From: Hyphomonas oceanitis SCH89
Lineage (GTDB): Bacteria; Pseudomonadota; Alphaproteobacteria; Caulobacterales; Hyphomonadaceae
Direction: 5' to 3'
Assembly (NCBI RefSeq): GCF_000685295.1
Contig: NZ_ARYL01000001.1
Location: forward strand, 62,001 to 126,000
Length of the DNA: 64,000 nucleotides
The notes beneath the pieces were generated by a model. The model worked only from the letters and a program-made list of their open reading frames with translations. It was not told the origin of the DNA and did not search any database. This document shows, piece after piece, positions 29,840-62,034 of this stretch (position 1 is its first letter; every line of letters begins with the position of its first letter). The position numbers and the translations under genes are program-made.

Positions 29840-30553
29840 TCAGGCGGCCTCTTCAACCTCGTTCGAGCGCGAGCTCGGGCGCGGATCGCGCAGCACATAG
29901 CCACGGCCCCAGACGGTTTCGATATAATGCTGACCGCCGGTGGCCTGCTGCAGCTTCTTGCGGAGCTTACAGATGAACACGTCGATGATCTTGAGTTCAG
30001 GCTCGTCCATGCCGCCATAGAGGTGGTTGAGGAACATTTCCTTGGTGAGCGTCGTGCCCTTGCGCAGGGAGAGCAGCTCGAACATCTGGTATTCCTTGCC
30101 GGTCAGGTGGACGCGCTCGTCGTCGACTTCGACCGTCTTGGCATCCAGATTGACCAGGATTTCGCCGGTGCGGATGACGCTTTCAGCGTGCCCCTTGGAA
30201 CGACGCACGATTGCCGTGATACGGGCAATCAGCTCATCCTTGTTGAATGGCTTGGTGAGATAGTCATCGGCGCCGTAGCCGAGCGTTTTCACCTTGGCTT
30301 CGATGTCAGGGTTACCCGACAGGATCATGACTGGCGTGTTCACACGGCCCATACGGAGCTGTTTGAGCACTTCGTAGCCGGAGATATCCGGCAGCGAGAG
30401 GTCGAGTACGATCATGTCGTATTCGTAGACTTTGCCGAGATCGACACCTTCTTCACCGAGGTCGGTGGTATAGATGTTGAAGCCAGCGGCCTTCAACATC
30501 AGCTCGATAGAACGCGCTACAGCGCTATCGTCTTCAATTAATAGGACGCGCAT
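29840..30553 (-). CDS. ctrA: Cell-cycle master response regulator CtrA
   Basis: A 237-residue OmpR-class regulator. Receiver domain (1-120) with the phosphoacceptor Asp51 in [15 protein letters not shown], acidic pocket in LIEDDS and Lys in [14 protein letters not shown]. Winged-helix domain with [25 protein letters not shown] and the recognition region [12 protein letters not shown]. Near-identical wording to Caulobacter CtrA in the DNA-binding part. It controls division, polar morphogenesis, flagellar genes and replication in this group. A GGGAGA site precedes the ATG. It directly follows the minD-like/flhF genes with a 134-base regulatory gap, and sciP, encoding its inhibitor, is 4.6 kb upstream. 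Confidence 0.97.
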
Positions 30554-30687: not shown

Positions 30688-31527
30688 TTAATAGCCAAGC
30701 TCCGCCGCAGGGGCGTTACCTATCAGCATCTGGGAGATGGCGATCGCATCCTGGATCGGCTGTGCTTGCTGGTCAGTAGAGATCAGCGTCTTCTGGCAAC
30801 GGATCGCATCACGCACCTTTGGATCGCGCATAACGATGCCGGCGAGGTGTGGACGGAATCCCAAGAAAGTCTGGCAGGCTCGCGCAATCGCTTCATATGT
30901 GCGCTGGCCAGCAGCCCGTGTGTCGGCCTGGTTAATACAGATCACGGGCTCAACATTTGGCGCGTAGCCACGCAGAACCTTGATGAACGCATAGGCATCC
31001 GTCATCGACGTTGGCTCGTCAGTGATAACCATCAGCGCCTTATCGGCCGCACGGGCAAGCCGCATGCAGTTGGCTTCGATACCGGCGCCAAGGTCGAGCA
31101 CGACCTGGTCGTATTGCAGGGCAAGCGCCGAAAGACCGGCAGCGAGACGGGCAACTTCTTCCGGTGGCAGCTCAGCGAGCGCGCCGGAGCCTGAACGGCC
31201 CGGCAGCACATCGAAGCCACCGCCAGCCGCGCCGCCATCAACAGGTGTCACCGCATCATCGAGTTCAACCCAACCCGCAATAACGGCGGCCAGATCTGTC
31301 TCAGGTGCGATGCCAAGCTGAACGTCGACATTGGCGAGGCCAAGGTCGCCATCGACAAGCAGGGTTCGCTTACCGGCCTGGGCGAAGGCCGAGGCGAGCG
31401 TGATTGCCATGAAGGTCTTGCCGACACCGCCCTTGCCACTGGCAACAGCGATGATCGAGGCGGGGGCCACGCGTGGGGTCGGTCGCGCTTGCGGCCGATC
31501 CTGGGATTTTCGAAGCATGAAACTCAT
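30688..31527 (-). CDS. flhG: MinD/ParA-like ATPase, probable FlhG (FleN)
   Basis: A 279-residue ParA/MinD-family ATPase with the deviant Walker A motif KGGVGKT at residues 32-38, LLVDGDLGLANVDVQLG and the switch DLGAGIEANC. The N-terminal 25 residues are basic and Pro-rich. It follows flhF with a 4-base gap, and the flhF-flhG pairing is the usual genetic signature of flagellar number and placement control. AAGGAG is 12 bases upstream of the ATG at 31527. The C terminus lacks an obvious amphipathic helix. ctrA follows on the same strand. Confidence 0.85.
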   Translation of the reverse strand: MSFMLRKSQDRPQARPTPRVAPASIIAVASGKGGVGKTFMAITLASAFAQAGKRTLLVDGDLGLANVDVQLGIAPETDLAAVIAGWVELDDAVTPVDGGAAGGGFDVLPGRSGSGALAELPPEEVARLAAGLSALALQYDQVVLDLGAGIEANCMRLARAADKALMVITDEPTSMTDAYAFIKVLRGYAPNVEPVICINQADTRAAGQRTYEAIARACQTFLGFRPHLAGIVMRDPKVRDAIRCQKTLISTDQQAQPIQDAIAISQMLIGNAPAAELGY

Positions 31528-31531
31528 AGGG

Positions 31532-32548
31532 CTACGCGGCTCCTTTCATGGCGATGACATCGCCGGGGGCGTCTTCCATCAAGAGAGCGGCCAGGCGCGA
31601 GGGCGCGGCCGGTACCAGGCCGCCGCCGATGAACGGCGTCACGGCCAAATGCGAAAAGGCGATGCCGGCAGACGACAACGCGGAGATGGAGCCGCCGCGG
31701 CGGCGGACAACATCAAGCTTGGTGAGAATGGCCCGCTTCACACCGGCGCGGGCATAGCACTTGGCTGCCTCCGCCTGGTCTTCGGGGTGGCCTTCAGCTG
31801 AGAGGACAAGGACGGGCTCAGCGCGGATGACGGAAATCAGGTCCTGAAGGCTCGCCATGTCGTCTTCGTCGAATGGATTGATCGCCGGCATGTCGATGAT
31901 GCAGCGGCGGTTCTGGGCGCGCAGGGTCCGGAGCGTCGCGAACAGAGCGTCCGGCGTTTGCACGCTGCGGATCTGGTCCTGCTCAAGCTCGAGATAAGCG
32001 GCGAGTTGCTGGCCACCGGCGGTGCCATCAAGGTCGGCTGCGACGGGCATGACTTCGCAACGCGCGACTGCAGCGCGGCGGGTCAGCTTTGCAGCGGTCG
32101 CCGTGCGACCATGGCCGGGAGGGCCAACAAGGACGATATCCCGGTCAAGCCGGGGCAGGATCGGGTCGCAAGCGACGAGGCGCGAGACGCCTTCAGCGAT
32201 TGCGTCTTCCGGATCGGTAAACTGGACGCCGTTGCGGCCCGCACTTTCGGCGGCCACACGGTCAGCAAAGCGCTGTGGCGCACCATGCCAGAGCAGTGCG
32301 TCGCGAACGCGGCTGAACAGCGGGTTTTCAATGCCACGCCCATGGCCACCGCCGCTACCGCGCGCTTCGCGCAGGAACAGGGGCTCGTTGGGCACCATGC
32401 CACCGCCCATCTTGTCGGTAGCCGCGCGCACTTCTACGCCGCCGTCAATCTCACGCTCCGACAGAATAACCGCGTCGGCGCCCATTTCGGCGAATATCAT
32501 CGCCTTGGCGGCCTCGAAGGACTCGGCTGCGAACATCTTCATGCGCAT
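31532..32548 (-). CDS. flhF: Divergent FlhF-like SRP GTPase with altered active site
   Basis: A 338-residue protein with FlhF layout: an N-terminal part (MRMKMFAAESFEAAKAMIFAE and ADAVILSER) and an NG-type GTPase domain. The P-loop reads GPPGHGRTATAAKL (residues 142-155) with Arg148 where every active SRP GTPase has Lys. The G3 region reads IIDMPAINPFDEDD in place of DTAGR; the guanine-specificity motif TKLD is retained. GTP hydrolysis is therefore probably lost or altered, though nucleotide binding may remain. It lies between fliN and the flhG-like gene. Confidence 0.8.
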   Translation of the reverse strand: MRMKMFAAESFEAAKAMIFAEMGADAVILSEREIDGGVEVRAATDKMGGGMVPNEPLFLREARGSGGGHGRGIENPLFSRVRDALLWHGAPQRFADRVAAESAGRNGVQFTDPEDAIAEGVSRLVACDPILPRLDRDIVLVGPPGHGRTATAAKLTRRAAVARCEVMPVAADLDGTAGGQQLAAYLELEQDQIRSVQTPDALFATLRTLRAQNRRCIIDMPAINPFDEDDMASLQDLISVIRAEPVLVLSAEGHPEDQAEAAKCYARAGVKRAILTKLDVVRRRGGSISALSSAGIAFSHLAVTPFIGGGLVPAAPSRLAALLMEDAPGDVIAMKGAA

Positions 32549-32754: not shown

Positions 32755-33018
32755 CTAAGCGGCCGCCCGTTCGTCGACGATTTCGGACAGCGTGACGCCG
32801 AGCTGCCCATCTGCGACCACGAGGCGGCCACGGGCCATCAGGCGGTCGGACACGTAAATGTCGATCATTTCATTGGTGCGCCGCTCAAGGGCGACAATCT
32901 CGCCAGGCGACAGCGCCATCAATTCCTCAATCGGCATGCGCACTTCACCCAGCACGACATCGACGCGCACAGGCACGTCCATCAGTGACTTTTCAAGGGC
33001 GGGATTGGCAGGTTGCAT
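32755..33018 (-). CDS. fliN: Flagellar switch protein FliN
   Basis: An 87-residue FliN/SpoA-domain protein of the flagellar C-ring: LMDVPVRVDVVLGEVRMPIEELMALSPGEIVALER and the C-terminal ARGRLVVADGQLGVTLSEIV. It is short because it lacks the N-terminal extension of enterobacterial FliN, as in Caulobacter. AAGGAA ribosome site. Order fliF-fliG-fliH-fliN matches Caulobacter; the regulator gene flbD that follows fliN there is not found here, and flhF takes the place. Confidence 0.93.
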   Translation of the reverse strand: MQPANPALEKSLMDVPVRVDVVLGEVRMPIEELMALSPGEIVALERRTNEMIDIYVSDRLMARGRLVVADGQLGVTLSEIVDERAAA

Positions 33019-33082: not shown

Positions 33083-33451
33083 TTAACGCGTCGCAAACAG
33101 GTCGCCCTGTCCGTCGATGATGCGCTGGGCGGTGGCATTGATAAGATTCAGCGACTTGGCGACGTCCAGCCCCTCATACGCACCTGTCTCGATATGGCGG
33201 GCAAGCGTAACGAGGTCCGCGAGGGCTTCGTTGAGCTTCAGCGTGACGGCCTGCATGCGCTCTTCCGTCTGCGAGGCTTCAAGACGGGTTGCCTCGGCGA
33301 GGCCTTCAGCCCGGGCTTGCGACAGGAGGCGGGCCAGCTCCGGCGCTGACAGGTCCATCTGCTCGCGCTGCGGCTGCCGAGGCTCTGCAGGAAGCGTAAA
33401 ATCACTACGAAATTCAAAGGCTTGGACAGACTTCACGGCACGATGGGTCAT
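33083..33451 (-). CDS. FliH/FlbE-like flagellar export apparatus protein
   Basis: A 122-residue, mostly helical acidic protein between fliG and fliN. This position is occupied in Caulobacter by flbE/fliH, encoding the stator-like partner of the FliI ATPase. Supporting features are the N-terminal segment with Gln/Pro-rich linker and a long coiled-coil-prone helix (about 35-95, LARLLSQARAEGLAEATRLEAS). It is considerably shorter than typical FliH (over 200 residues). The ATG overlaps the fliG stop (ATGA). Assignment leans on gene order. Confidence 0.7.
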   Translation of the reverse strand: MTHRAVKSVQAFEFRSDFTLPAEPRQPQREQMDLSAPELARLLSQARAEGLAEATRLEASQTEERMQAVTLKLNEALADLVTLARHIETGAYEGLDVAKSLNLINATAQRIIDGQGDLFATR

Positions 33452-34386
33452 TCGATCAATTCCTCGTCTTCCCGGCCGCCAGTGGCGCGGATGTCGCCTC
33501 GAGCCATGAGGTCGCGCGCCAGCGAGACCAGGGCCTGACGGGCGGCTTCGACTTCGCTGCGGCGCACGGCGCCGTGGGCAGAAATCTCGTCGCGCAGGAG
33601 GTCGCCAGCGCGGCGGGTCATGTTACGGAAGAAGGCCGCGGCGGTCTCTTCGCGGGCGCCTTTCAGGGCGATGATCAGGGTGGAACGGTCAGCGGATGCG
33701 AGCAGTGTCTGCAGGCCGGCTGCGTCGAGACGCGCCAGGTCGTCGAAGGTGAACATGAGCGCGCGGACCTTCTCGCCGGCGCCGGGTTCTGCTGTATCCA
33801 ATGCAGCGAGGAAGGATTTTTCGAGGCGGCTGTCGAGGCGGTCGAAGATGCGGGCAACGCTTTCATGGCCGCCTTGCCGGGCGTTGCCGTGCAGGCTGTC
33901 GATCTGTTGTGCGATATAGGATTCAAGGCTGGCTGCCGCGCCGGGGTGAACCGGGCCGAGGTGCAGCAGGCGGTGCATCGCATCGATGGCAACACGCGGG
34001 CTGAGGGCCCGCAGGAGACGGGCGGAGGCGTCGCCTTGCAGCCTGGACAGGACGAAGGCGAGCGTCTGGGGGTGCTCGTCTACGAACAGGTTAGCGAGGG
34101 CCCCAGTGTCTAGGGCCGAGAGACGTGACCAGACGGAACCTGTTGTTTTTGTTGCAGGACCGAGACTGCGGTGCGCATCGAGAAAGCTGCGGGCCGCTTC
34201 GGTTTCGCCGTCCATATTGTCGTCGAGGGCGTCCATGGCGGCGGTGAGTTTGCGGGCTTCATCGGGCTCAAGCTCGGCCCAGATGCCGGCGGCCTCAGGA
34301 CCGAGGGCGCGCATCAGGCGGGCGGAGCGGGCGAGACCGTCGCGCGCTGTAATGTTTGTTGCAGGTATGACGGCGAGAGCGCTCAT
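33448..34386 (-). CDS. fliG: Flagellar motor switch protein FliG
   Basis: A 312-residue FliG. The middle domain carries the EHPQ motif in LFVDEHPQTLAFVLSRL, followed by the hydrophobic helices and the C-terminal torque domain (MFTFDDLARLDAAGLQTLL, LKGAREETAAAFFRNMTRRAGDLLRDE). The N-terminal FliF-binding domain is weakly conserved and about 20 residues shorter than usual, which is notable because its partner FliF is abnormal here. Its ATG overlaps the stop of the fliF tail frame (ATGA), and its own stop overlaps the FliH-like start. Confidence 0.92.
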   Translation of the reverse strand: MSALAVIPATNITARDGLARSARLMRALGPEAAGIWAELEPDEARKLTAAMDALDDNMDGETEAARSFLDAHRSLGPATKTTGSVWSRLSALDTGALANLFVDEHPQTLAFVLSRLQGDASARLLRALSPRVAIDAMHRLLHLGPVHPGAAASLESYIAQQIDSLHGNARQGGHESVARIFDRLDSRLEKSFLAALDTAEPGAGEKVRALMFTFDDLARLDAAGLQTLLASADRSTLIIALKGAREETAAAFFRNMTRRAGDLLRDEISAHGAVRRSEVEAARQALVSLARDLMARGDIRATGGREDEELIE

Positions 34387-35056
34387 GCGGCGTCCGTCCC
34401 GTTCTTCATCCAGCCGCGCAGGATATCAGCCGCGCGAGCCGGATCCTTGCGGGCGAGGTCAGCGACATCACTAGTGACTGGCACGGTCCGAAGGGGGCGC
34501 ATAGGGGTCGTTGCGAGGGAGCGCGCGGGCGCTTCCGGGGGCGCTTCAGGGTATTCCCGGACCATTCCCGGGACTTCCGAGTCCATTCGTGGGCAAAGCC
34601 GAGCCAGCCGGCGAGACCTGCAAGCAGCGCGAGGAGCGCAAGCTCGCCATAGGCCTCCGCGTCGGGCCGTCCGGGCGCGCCGCGCGCGAAGGGGGCTGTC
34701 TGGATAACGAGCAAGTCACCCGAGGCGACGTCGAGACGTGCAGCGGTGGTGACGAGGCTTTCGATCATGGAGGCCTGGGCTGCTTCGGCCGCGTCCAGGA
34801 GGACGAGCACGGTGCGGCCGCCGGTGGCGGTCGTGGTGACACTGATGCGCGCATTGCCGGGTCCGGCGACGGGATCAACCAGGTTCATGAGGGAGACTTC
34901 GAGCGGGGTCGCTGAAGCGGGGAGCGGATGGTCGGCGGTGAGCAATGTACTGCCGCGCCAGGCGAGCAGGCCGAGTGCGATGACAAACGCCGCCATCGCG
35001 AGCGCCCGTGAAGAGGGGCCCGCGCCGGGTTTACCTTTGCCGGATCTGCTTGCCAT
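34383..35056 (-). CDS. fliF: Drastically shortened FliF-like MS-ring protein, apparently frameshifted
   Basis: Occupies the fliF position but is only about 225 residues long against 530-570 for FliF. Residues 18-33 form the first membrane helix. Residues about 52-125 match the end part of FliF ring-building motif 3 (LVDPVAGPGNARISV, then TVLVLLD and SGDLLVIQTAPFA). Residues 138-154 form the second helix. RBM1, RBM2 and the beta-collar are missing. The FliG-binding tail (VADLARKDPARAADILRGWM) is encoded in the -1 frame, open from 34586 to a stop at 34383 that overlaps the fliG start. The upstream frame instead continues as an unnatural Arg-rich stretch to 34406. The switch must fall near 34575-34595. 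Start ATG at 35056 follows GGAGAGG. A real mutation, a sequencing error and a separate start at 34586 all remain possible. Confidence 0.7.
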
Positions 35057-35107: not shown

Positions 35108-35140
35108 GCCTGCCCGTAAATTTGTGTTTAACGGGCAGGC
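35108..35140 (-). terminator. GC-rich hairpin between sciP and fliF
   Basis: A 10-bp perfect stem (GCCTGCCCGT at 35108-35117 with ACGGGCAGGC at 35131-35140) directly after the sciP stop. No T-run follows on either strand, so it is either an attenuating/processing hairpin or a weak terminator that uncouples sciP from fliF. Confidence 0.55.
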
Positions 35141-35164: not shown

Positions 35165-35461
35165 CTAGCGGCGGTACTTCTGGAGCCGCGTTGTGCGCAG
35201 GCCCTTGATGCCATGGCGGGAGTAAAGCTTCTCCCAGCCTTCATATTCCTCGTCCGTCAGGTTGTAGCGTTCGCACGCAGCCTTGCGTGAAAGCAGCCCA
35301 CCTGAAACGGCCGCAACGACTTCTGCCTTGCGGCGCGTCACCCAACGGGAAATCCCCGGCGATGGCAGGTCTGCCAGGGTGAGCATCTGGCCGTCCGGGC
35401 CTTTGACGCTCGTCATGTTTGCGTTCTGCATTTCCATATCCACACACCATTCTTCGGTCAT
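35165..35461 (-). CDS. sciP: CtrA inhibitory protein SciP (DUF1153)
   Basis: A 98-residue DUF1153 protein matching SciP, which binds CtrA and blocks activation of its targets in Caulobacter. Conserved features are VKGPDGQMLTLADLPSPG, SRWVTRRKAEVVAAVSGGLL, the helix-turn-helix part (SRKAACERYNLTDEEYEGW) and the C terminus GIKGLRTTRLQKYR. As in Caulobacter it lies just upstream of fliF. The exact start is uncertain: 35461 is used, and internal Met codons at 35437 and 35431 are alternatives. It shares this window with its target, ctrA. Confidence 0.93.
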   Translation of the reverse strand: MTEEWCVDMEMQNANMTSVKGPDGQMLTLADLPSPGISRWVTRRKAEVVAAVSGGLLSRKAACERYNLTDEEYEGWEKLYSRHGIKGLRTTRLQKYRR

Positions 35462-61787: not shown

Positions 61788-62034
61788 TAAAACTTACAAT
61801 TGGATGGGTTTCCTCCGTGAAATTTGACCAATCGCAATTACGCAGGCTGGGTGGGGATCCGTATTGCCTGCGAATGGTGGACAGAATGGCCGCTCTGGAC
61901 CCTTTTGGGCGACCGGGCGGTCATTTTTGTTCAGGCCTCAGAATTACCGTTCCTGATCGGGCAGCGCGCACCTTTACCCCACGAAAATCCGGGAAATGCT
62001 TCACGAAACGGCTTCGCGTCGCTATCTTTGGCTC

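Follow-up and report, generated by a model that had tools for sequence, protein, structure and literature searches.

A stripped-down FliF encoded beside sciP in Hyphomonas oceanitis and a possible rotor–stator core kept without a flagellum

A 64,000-nucleotide stretch of the Hyphomonas oceanitis SCH89 genome (hereafter the window; positions 62001–126000 of contig C1 in a 4.28-Mb draft of 188 contigs) encodes, on the minus strand between sciP and fliG, a short relative of FliF, which we refer to as mini-FliF. It keeps the first transmembrane helix (TM1), the third ring-building motif (RBM3), the second transmembrane helix (TM2) and the C-terminal FliG-binding helices of FliF and is devoid of RBM1, RBM2 and the beta-collar. 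Mini-FliF is found throughout most of the Hyphomonas/Henriciella clade together with its own FliG (FliG1) and FliN (FliN1), a FliH-like piece and a second stator pair (MotA1 and MotB1), including in 9 genomes in which neither the export gate protein FlhA nor a long FliF was found. We consider it rather probable that a working rotor–stator core has been kept here without a flagellum.

The first-pass annotation of the window, made from the sequence alone, recognized a FliF-like short gene between sciP and fliG (ATG at 35056, minus strand) and held that its remaining parts are colinear with FliF; both observations were upheld. Of the two FliF profiles that it proposed to search with, the Pfam family YscJ_FliF_C (PF08345) matched the window protein at 15.5 bits (E = 0.025), which is below the cut-off of 23.8 bits, and YscJ_FliF (PF01514) did not match. 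Among the 51 mini-FliF scanned, 7 matched PF08345 at E ≤ 0.1 and none matched PF01514, which covers RBM1 and RBM2. The NCBIfam models, TIGR00206 included, gave no match for the mini-FliF protein of genome G039, the best protein match of the window copy (87% identity over residues 1–187). Because curated family cut-offs are not reached, ordinary annotation likely misses mini-FliF. A profile built from 51 mini-FliF relatives retrieved Salmonella FliF (6scn) from the PDB with a whole-sequence E of 6e-7, aligning in order to residues 239–270 (9.4 bits, E = 9, weak by itself) and 407–559 (29.5 bits, E = 6e-6). With reference to the RBM3a/collar/RBM3b layout of FliF given in passages of PMC10198558, these pieces represent both sides of RBM3, TM2 and the tail, and the collar between them is missing, confirming the reported absence of RBM1, RBM2 and the beta-collar. 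Profile positions 183–213, in the tail, match FliF of 6scn, 8z5s and 8z4d, and an hhalign comparison with 6 long FliF aligned the second part only, at 96.8% probability. Identity with the injectisome protein SctJ/PrgK did not fit, there being no PF01514 match and the neighbors being sciP, fliG and fliN.

The AlphaFold model of the G039 protein consists of TM1 (residues 16–40), a helix-strand-strand-helix-strand block (residues 51–121; predicted local distance difference test [pLDDT] of 91–96), TM2 (residues 133–154) and 2 tail helices, and the 217-amino acid (aa) protein of the flagellum-less genome G029 has the same plan, with a block pLDDT of 87–96. Thus, the periplasmic block is predicted to be a complete RBM fold, matching RBM3a plus RBM3b minus the collar, rather than the fragment of one ring motif described initially. 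The top Foldseek matches were FliF S-ring chains at E = 5e-3, none reaching 0.001 or below, closely followed by KH-domain and EscJ chains; such modest scores may be expected for 2 helices, 1 small domain and a floppy tail. Whereas profile, hhalign and models together place TM1, TM2 and the FliG-binding helices in mini-FliF, simple hydropathy recovered 2 membrane segments in 62 of 71 mini-FliF and 1 in the other 9. The length, which had been proposed for comparison across the family, is 211–230 aa in 69 relatives, with starts picked by a script favoring lengths near 216. A shorter form is encoded in genome G031 (L045:4005-4385), namely a 126-aa FliF relic with 2 membrane helices and the FliG-binding tail and without a ring motif; the FliG beside it has degenerate torque residues (M-R-R-E-T). 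In the window, mini-FliF comprises the following parts:

34383–35056, minus strand: mini-FliF (stripped fliF), with the ATG at 35056, the in-frame stop at 34406 and the stop of the tail frame at 34383
34937–35011, minus strand: TM1, residues 16–40 (AF2 [AlphaFold] model of the G039 protein and window-protein hydropathy)
34694–34906, minus strand: predicted whole RBM3 without the beta-collar, residues 51–121 (profile, AlphaFold models, Foldseek)
34595–34660, minus strand: TM2, residues 133–154 (AF2 model, hydropathy)
34383–34470, minus strand: FliG-binding tail of the FliF type, in a different frame from the ATG (profile and models)

The gene had been placed at 34383–35056, and its ATG and tail end are indeed there, but these 674 bases form 2 reading frames rather than 1. 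The ATG frame ends at 34406 (216 aa), and the FliG-binding tail sits in the other frame, the TGA of which, at 34383, overlaps the fliG ATG. The frame shifts by 1 position just past TM2, at approximately 34590–34600, where the 2 nearest relatives are open. A programmed frame change as a part of the system was ruled out, since 70 of the 71 extracted relatives (G060 is not among the extracted loci) read straight through the tail tryptophan in one open frame and the 71st, G078, is truncated where its contig ends. For the same reason, we attribute the frame change to the assembly or to a local change in the window, the copy of which may be broken or mis-assembled, with intact copies in the relatives.

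Searches with the window protein at E ≤ 0.001 matched 71 of 105 family genomes, its own included, and G029 and G031 were added by position and profile, bringing the total to 73 of the 78 genomes in genus codes g1, g2, g3, g6 and g9 (the Hyphomonas/Henriciella clade). None of the 27 genomes from 5 other genera matched the window protein, although this search could miss a mini-FliF that has diverged as far as G029 and G031. These sister genomes carry a single FliG (25 genomes) or none (2 genomes), and the 5 loci read there display the order sciP-X-fliG...fliN...flhF-flhG, where X is a long FliF with stop-to-stop frames of 556–640 codons. Mini-FliF is the positional ortholog of this long fliF and therefore appears to be an old Caulobacter-type fliF that has been stripped down. 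FlhA, located between fliN and flhF in the sister genera, is gone from the clade locus. A quick FliG tree, which is a gene tree rather than a species tree and gave long-branch warnings (also for G031), gathers the 70 FliG1 in a single group with a support of 93, separate from the sister-genus FliG. When 398 genomes of the order were searched, a sample that did not take in the whole family, nearly all of the others among the matches listed were the C-terminal portions of FliF frames with at least 490 codons. Mini-FliF occurs with FliG1, FliN1 (read in 55 of 71 loci, including 1 truncated copy, with the remaining 16 loci too short), the FliH-like gene (at the same place in 70 of 71 extracted loci, the exception being the contig end of G078) and the second stator pair.

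The same genome encodes a second, fuller flagellar set. A 506-aa FliF on contig C21 is its only PF01514 match and scores 160.6 bits on TIGR00206 (cut-off 129.75). Searches placed FliG2, FliN, a FliM-like protein, MotA, MotB and FlhA in the same region, and reading of the translations added FliL-, FliP-, hook-, flagellin- and FliI-like genes. Swimming is expected to depend on the C21 system; for Hyphomonas neptunium, passages of PMC6180460 describe a fla2-like flgB-fliI arrangement and PMC7693769, as far as its excerpts go, contains a cryo-electron tomography motor entry. Decay of the sole FliF of the organism was accordingly rejected, and the suggestion of a non-motile lineage eroding its basal body is not supported, given also the conservation of the short gene (see below). 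A full-length fliF elsewhere in the genome, which was to mark mini-FliF as a decayed copy, thus exists, but the conservation speaks against decay. The other initial suggestion, an unusual minimal MS-ring, comes closer, except that mini-FliF would belong not to the MS-ring of the organism's own flagellum but to a separate rotor–stator set, present also in the 9 genomes in which neither FlhA nor a long FliF was found. The FliM model PF02154 matched 0 of 78 clade genomes and 25 of 27 sister genomes. Because there is no match anywhere in the clade, the FliM of the clade flagellum is probably strongly divergent, and the FliM-like protein of the C21 cluster (L005:5150-6049) matches FliMN_C only. The lack of PF02154 matches was rejected as proof of a FliM-free C-ring, since the model also misses this flagellar FliM-like protein.

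FlhA was not found in 13 of the 105 family genomes, 9 of which (G061, G073, G021, G026, G029, G031, G002, G003, and G088; completeness 80%–100%) keep mini-FliF, FliG1, the FliH piece and FliN1 in order. No long FliF was found in these 9 genomes, and each has 1 FliG, 1 MotA and at most 1 MotB, whereas most of the other module genomes carry FlhA and a long FliF elsewhere. FlhF was found in all 9, and FlhG adjoins the module in 4. The flagellum-less set does not include G001, G013 and G032, which have no mini-FliF, or G023, which has neither FlhA nor a long FliF (87% complete, 590 contigs) but is probably flagellated, its FliG, MotA and MotB giving flagellar-type scores; G068, with FlhA and no long FliF match, was counted as flagellated. 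In G001 and G013, matches to mini-FliF, FliG, MotA and MotB are all missing together, and G032 (95% complete) has MotA1 and MotB1 matches and none to FliG, mini-FliF or FlhF. Parsimony on the FliG tree requires 6 changes of flagellar state, at least 4 of them forced by well-supported branches.

A search with the MotA of the C21 cluster revealed that the flagellum-less genomes hold a different MotA, MotA1. Two MotA (PF20560) matches are present in 63 of 64 mini-FliF genomes with FlhA (G050 has 1) and a single one in 9 of 9 without FlhA, all 9 being MotA1 by best match. Consistently, at least 2 MotB (PF13677) matches occur in 64 of 64 genomes with FlhA and 1 in 7 of 9 without (none in G031 and G088). 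Overall, the second stator pair is represented by MotA in 72 and MotB in 71 of the 73 mini-FliF genomes, the type having been read in 15 (MotA1) and 16 (MotB1) genomes and a second Pfam match counted elsewhere (MotB1 of G029 included). By contrast, the 27 sister genomes have 1 MotA in 24 and none in 3, and 1 MotB in 23, 2 in G100 and none in 3. In quick trees, the 15 MotA1 and the 16 MotB1 sequences each form one clade. MotA1 retains E98, P173 and P222 in all 15 sequences read and R or K at position 90 in 14, and MotB1 has the proton-site Asp in 16 of 16, with plug and OmpA domains in both of the proteins scanned. At E. coli FliG positions 264, 281, 288, 289 and 297, the window FliG1 reads K-R-D-E-R and the flagellar FliG2 Q-R-E-E-S; FliG1 keeps K264, R281, an acidic residue at 289 and R or K at 297 in all 61 flagellated genomes and in 8 of the 9 flagellum-less ones (counts exclude G089, with a split frame, G078, at a contig end, and G060). 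Thus, FliG torque residues, FliN, MotA and a MotB with the proton-site Asp and an OmpA-type domain are all present, and FliG1, FliN1, MotA1 and MotB1 reach their Pfam cut-offs while missing those of NCBIfam. The neighbors of MotA1 and MotB1, judged by eye from open reading frame lists of 2 MotA1 loci plus that of the window genome and 2 MotB1 loci, suggested no load.

The minus-strand order in the window is sciP, mini-FliF, FliG1, the FliH-like piece, FliN1, FlhF, FlhG and a CtrA-like regulator, as follows:

35165–35461, minus strand: DUF1153 protein, presumably SciP
35117–35131, minus strand: CtrA-type box TTAAACACAAATTTA, 75 bases upstream of the mini-FliF start, 1 mismatch to TTAA-N7-TTAA
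33448–34386, minus strand: FliG1, 312 aa; FliG_N (partial), FliG_M and FliG_C matches
33083–33451, minus strand: FliH-like remnant, 122 aa; weak FliH model match
32755–33018, minus strand: FliN1, 87 aa; FliMN_C at 5e-22, TIGR02480 at 83.7 bits (cut-off 84.05)
31532–32548, minus strand: FlhF-type GTPase; TIGR03499 at 70.7 bits (cut-off 174)
30688–31527, minus strand: FlhG/MinD-type ATPase; gene order as in the sister genera
29840–30553, minus strand: CtrA-like response regulator, which we take to be CtrA; Response_reg and Trans_reg_C

FliG1 scores 153 bits on TIGR00207 (cut-off 226.7). Residues 6–98 of the FliH-like remnant align weakly with positions 3–96 of the 205-aa FliH model (E = 0.002, 17.9 bits, cut-off 179). 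In other bacteria, FlhF sets the flagellar pole. FliG1 also keeps an EHPQ stretch, presumably the FliM-binding motif, in a clade where no Pfam-type FliM (PF02154) turns up.

What has been kept generates torque and ties it to the membrane and cell wall, and what has been lost builds and exports a filament; we infer a CtrA-timed rotor–stator core, probably polar. Further points in its favor, detailed below, are the purifying selection on the operon genes, the conserved CtrA-type box, the constant presence of FlhF in the flagellum-less keepers and the joint absence of rotor and stator matches in G001 and G013. The ancestor of Hyphomonas, Henriciella and their relatives would have had a Caulobacter-type motor, and when swimming passed to another flagellar system, the old motor may have lost its rod and export-gate parts (RBM1, RBM2, the beta-collar, FlhA at the locus and the C-terminal part of FliH) while keeping its torque parts. 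Mini-FliF probably anchors the FliG1–FliN1 rotor in the inner membrane and assembles as a ring; such RBM3 rings, coupled through their tails to FliG1, would be turned by, or loaded against, the peptidoglycan-anchored MotA1/MotB1. The output would most likely be a signal, the filament-free rotor–stator serving as a dedicated load or touch sensor. This is our first guess because, according to passages of PMC7885107, Caulobacter flagellar mutants that have the inner-membrane rotor and lack the outer parts turn on holdfast formation by way of engaged MotAB stators that conduct protons and of the cyclase DgcB. The complete proposal, that the clade runs a CtrA-regulated motor without rod, hook or filament, made of an S-ring-like mini-FliF ring, FliG, FliN and its own MotA/MotB and kept after flagellum loss as a load or touch sensor or as the driver of a periplasmic load, has in our estimate about an even chance of being right, and the sensor role taken alone, which is argued by analogy, is a tentative suggestion that we would not bet on.

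Several observations weigh against a working core of this kind. The evidence for it is sequence and prediction throughout. Mini-FliF, FliG1, the FliH piece, FliN1, FlhF, MotA1 and MotB1 all fall below NCBIfam cut-offs, FliN1 and MotA1 narrowly. Position 288 of FliG, a MotA contact named in passages of PMC12505986, is acidic in just 47 of the 61 FliG1 from flagellated genomes and 4 of the 9 from flagellum-less ones. A C-ring without FliM would be odd, and no PF02154 FliM was detected in the clade. The MotA1 and MotB1 genes are not adjacent to the rotor genes, and their start regions have no clear enrichment of the CtrA box. Given the 80%–100% completeness of the 9 flagellum-less genomes, some of the flagellar absence may be due to assembly, and G061 and G073 have flagellated close relatives in the FliG tree. 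The stator of G032 comes without FliG or mini-FliF matches, and G031 combines its 126-aa, RBM3-less mini-FliF and its M-R-R-E-T torque residues with the absence of a MotB match; these 2 genomes may represent later stages of loss. Finally, the window copy itself is affected by the frame change.

The strongest alternative is a static polar scaffold, in which mini-FliF, FliG1, FliN1, FlhF and FlhG would form a non-rotating membrane platform, either a landmark or a cell-cycle checkpoint that reads the assembly state, and the torque residues would be historical. It could account for the constant presence of FlhF in the flagellum-less keepers, the FlhG gene adjoining 4 of the modules and the SciP gene beside the module, as well as for the promoter: the region upstream of mini-FliF contains a TTAA-N7-TTAA box with no more than 1 mismatch in all 72 loci (8 exact; 71 relatives plus the window, related genomes not being independent), compared to approximately 2 of 72 expected from block shuffles. 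Moreover, passages of PMC7885107 indicate that the assembly state of the Caulobacter flagellum feeds cell-cycle signaling. However, a scaffold would leave unexplained why the same genomes encode MotA1 and MotB1 with their channel and contact residues, why most torque charges are kept by FliG1 in 8 of the 9 flagellum-less genomes, or why G001 and G013 show no match to MotA, MotB, FliG or mini-FliF at all, and we regard this alternative as improbable.

Slow decay of an old flagellum without a present role is less likely still. RBM1, RBM2, the collar and part of FliH have clearly been lost, G031 is reduced further, and the frame change in the window copy would fit a relic. The median ratio of nonsynonymous to synonymous substitution rates (dN/dS) is highest for mini-FliF (0.158, 74 pairs), followed by FliN1 (0.146, 217 pairs), the FliH piece (0.111, 48 pairs) and FliG1 (0.093, 119 pairs), as calculated for equal-length protein pairs with at least 60% identity and dS of 0.1–1.6, without G089. 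Between flagellum-less genomes, mini-FliF values rise to 0.27 (G061/G073) and 0.37 (G021/G026), at dS > 1, a further point against a working core. Nevertheless, these sequence comparisons indicate that the operon genes are under purifying selection. In the flagellum-less pair G002/G003, dN/dS is 0.20 for mini-FliF, 0.135 for FliG1, 0.13 for the FliH piece and 0.05 for FliN1, and dN and dS from stop-to-stop frames give 0.04 for MotA1 and 0.14 for MotB1; the other operon genes lie at 0.05–0.22 wherever computable between flagellum-less genomes, and the whole range there is 0.05–0.37. The uniform length in 69 genomes (with script-chosen starts), the conserved promoter box and the retention of the module even though flagellar state changed approximately 6 times along the FliG tree likewise argue against decay. 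Equally unlikely is that MotA1/MotB1 work apart from the rotor, as a Tol/Exb-like energizer or as an additional stator serving the ordinary flagellum: their genes are unlinked to the rotor genes and G032 has the stator without the rotor, but MotA1 reaches 301 bits with TIGR03818, the model for flagellar MotA (cut-off 303.8), versus 16 bits with TolQ, keeps the FliG-contact residues and remains where no FlhA was found and the sole FliG is FliG1.

In Caulobacter, fliF, fliG, flbE/fliH and fliN form an operon beside sciP. The proposed rotor–stator core resembles this polar motor in gene order, as seen in the 5 sister-genus loci, in the CtrA-type box, and in its FliG, FliN and MotA/MotB with channel and contact residues, and differs from it in the TM1-RBM3-TM2-tail FliF, the short FliH-like gene, the location of FlhA off the locus, the absence of a PF02154 FliM and, in 9 clade genomes, the failure to find FlhA and a long FliF. 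The AglRQS and GldLM gliding motors are MotA/MotB-related, ion-driven and have no flagellum, and we know of no FliG/FliN/FliF rotor in these or in Zorya, ExbBD or TolQR. Zorya, ExbBD and TolQR, named in excerpts of PMC12505986, are likewise MotA/MotB-related, ion-driven and free of a flagellum; unlike all 5 systems, the core discussed here has a MotA of the flagellar type. The stator-dependent surface signaling of Caulobacter crescentus (PMC7885107, in the passages available) also involves a rotor and a proton-conducting stator without outer parts, although there this is the state of a flagellar mutant, whereas here the outer parts appear to be absent by evolution. Relics in the non-flagellated Lysobacter enzymogenes, as presented in part of PMC9927559, are comparable in that flagellar genes are kept without flagellar motility, but motA and motB have been lost there, whereas stator and rotor are kept together here. 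The hat-shaped inner-membrane structure of H. neptunium was considered as a product of mini-FliF and set aside as having no special link to it, because, according to passages of PMC9380563, the hat persists when fliF is deleted in another species and is found in various species with flagellar export systems. A full-text literature search, with subscription papers mostly outside its coverage, returned titles and abstract openings none of which named a mini-FliF or a filament-free motor in Hyphomonadaceae, and the Hyphomonas passages of PMC6180460, PMC11870540, PMC13023049 and PMC7693769 do not mention the gene.

If correct, the proposed rotor–stator core would represent a natural experiment in flagellum disassembly, in which export gate, rod, hook and filament have been removed and rotor and stator kept. 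It would make testable what a rotor–stator does besides swimming, touch and load sensing having been argued from mutants, as well as how little FliF is needed to hold a working FliG ring, and it would offer a naturally collar-less RBM3 for ring biochemistry. It also cautions that FliG, FliN, MotA or MotB in a genome is no proof of a flagellum. Among the sister-genus genomes, extra FlhA matches were observed in G079, G081, G098 and G099 and a second YscJ_FliF match in G079, G081 and G098, pointing to an additional cluster for a flagellum or for secretion or, for some of the matches, to split contigs.

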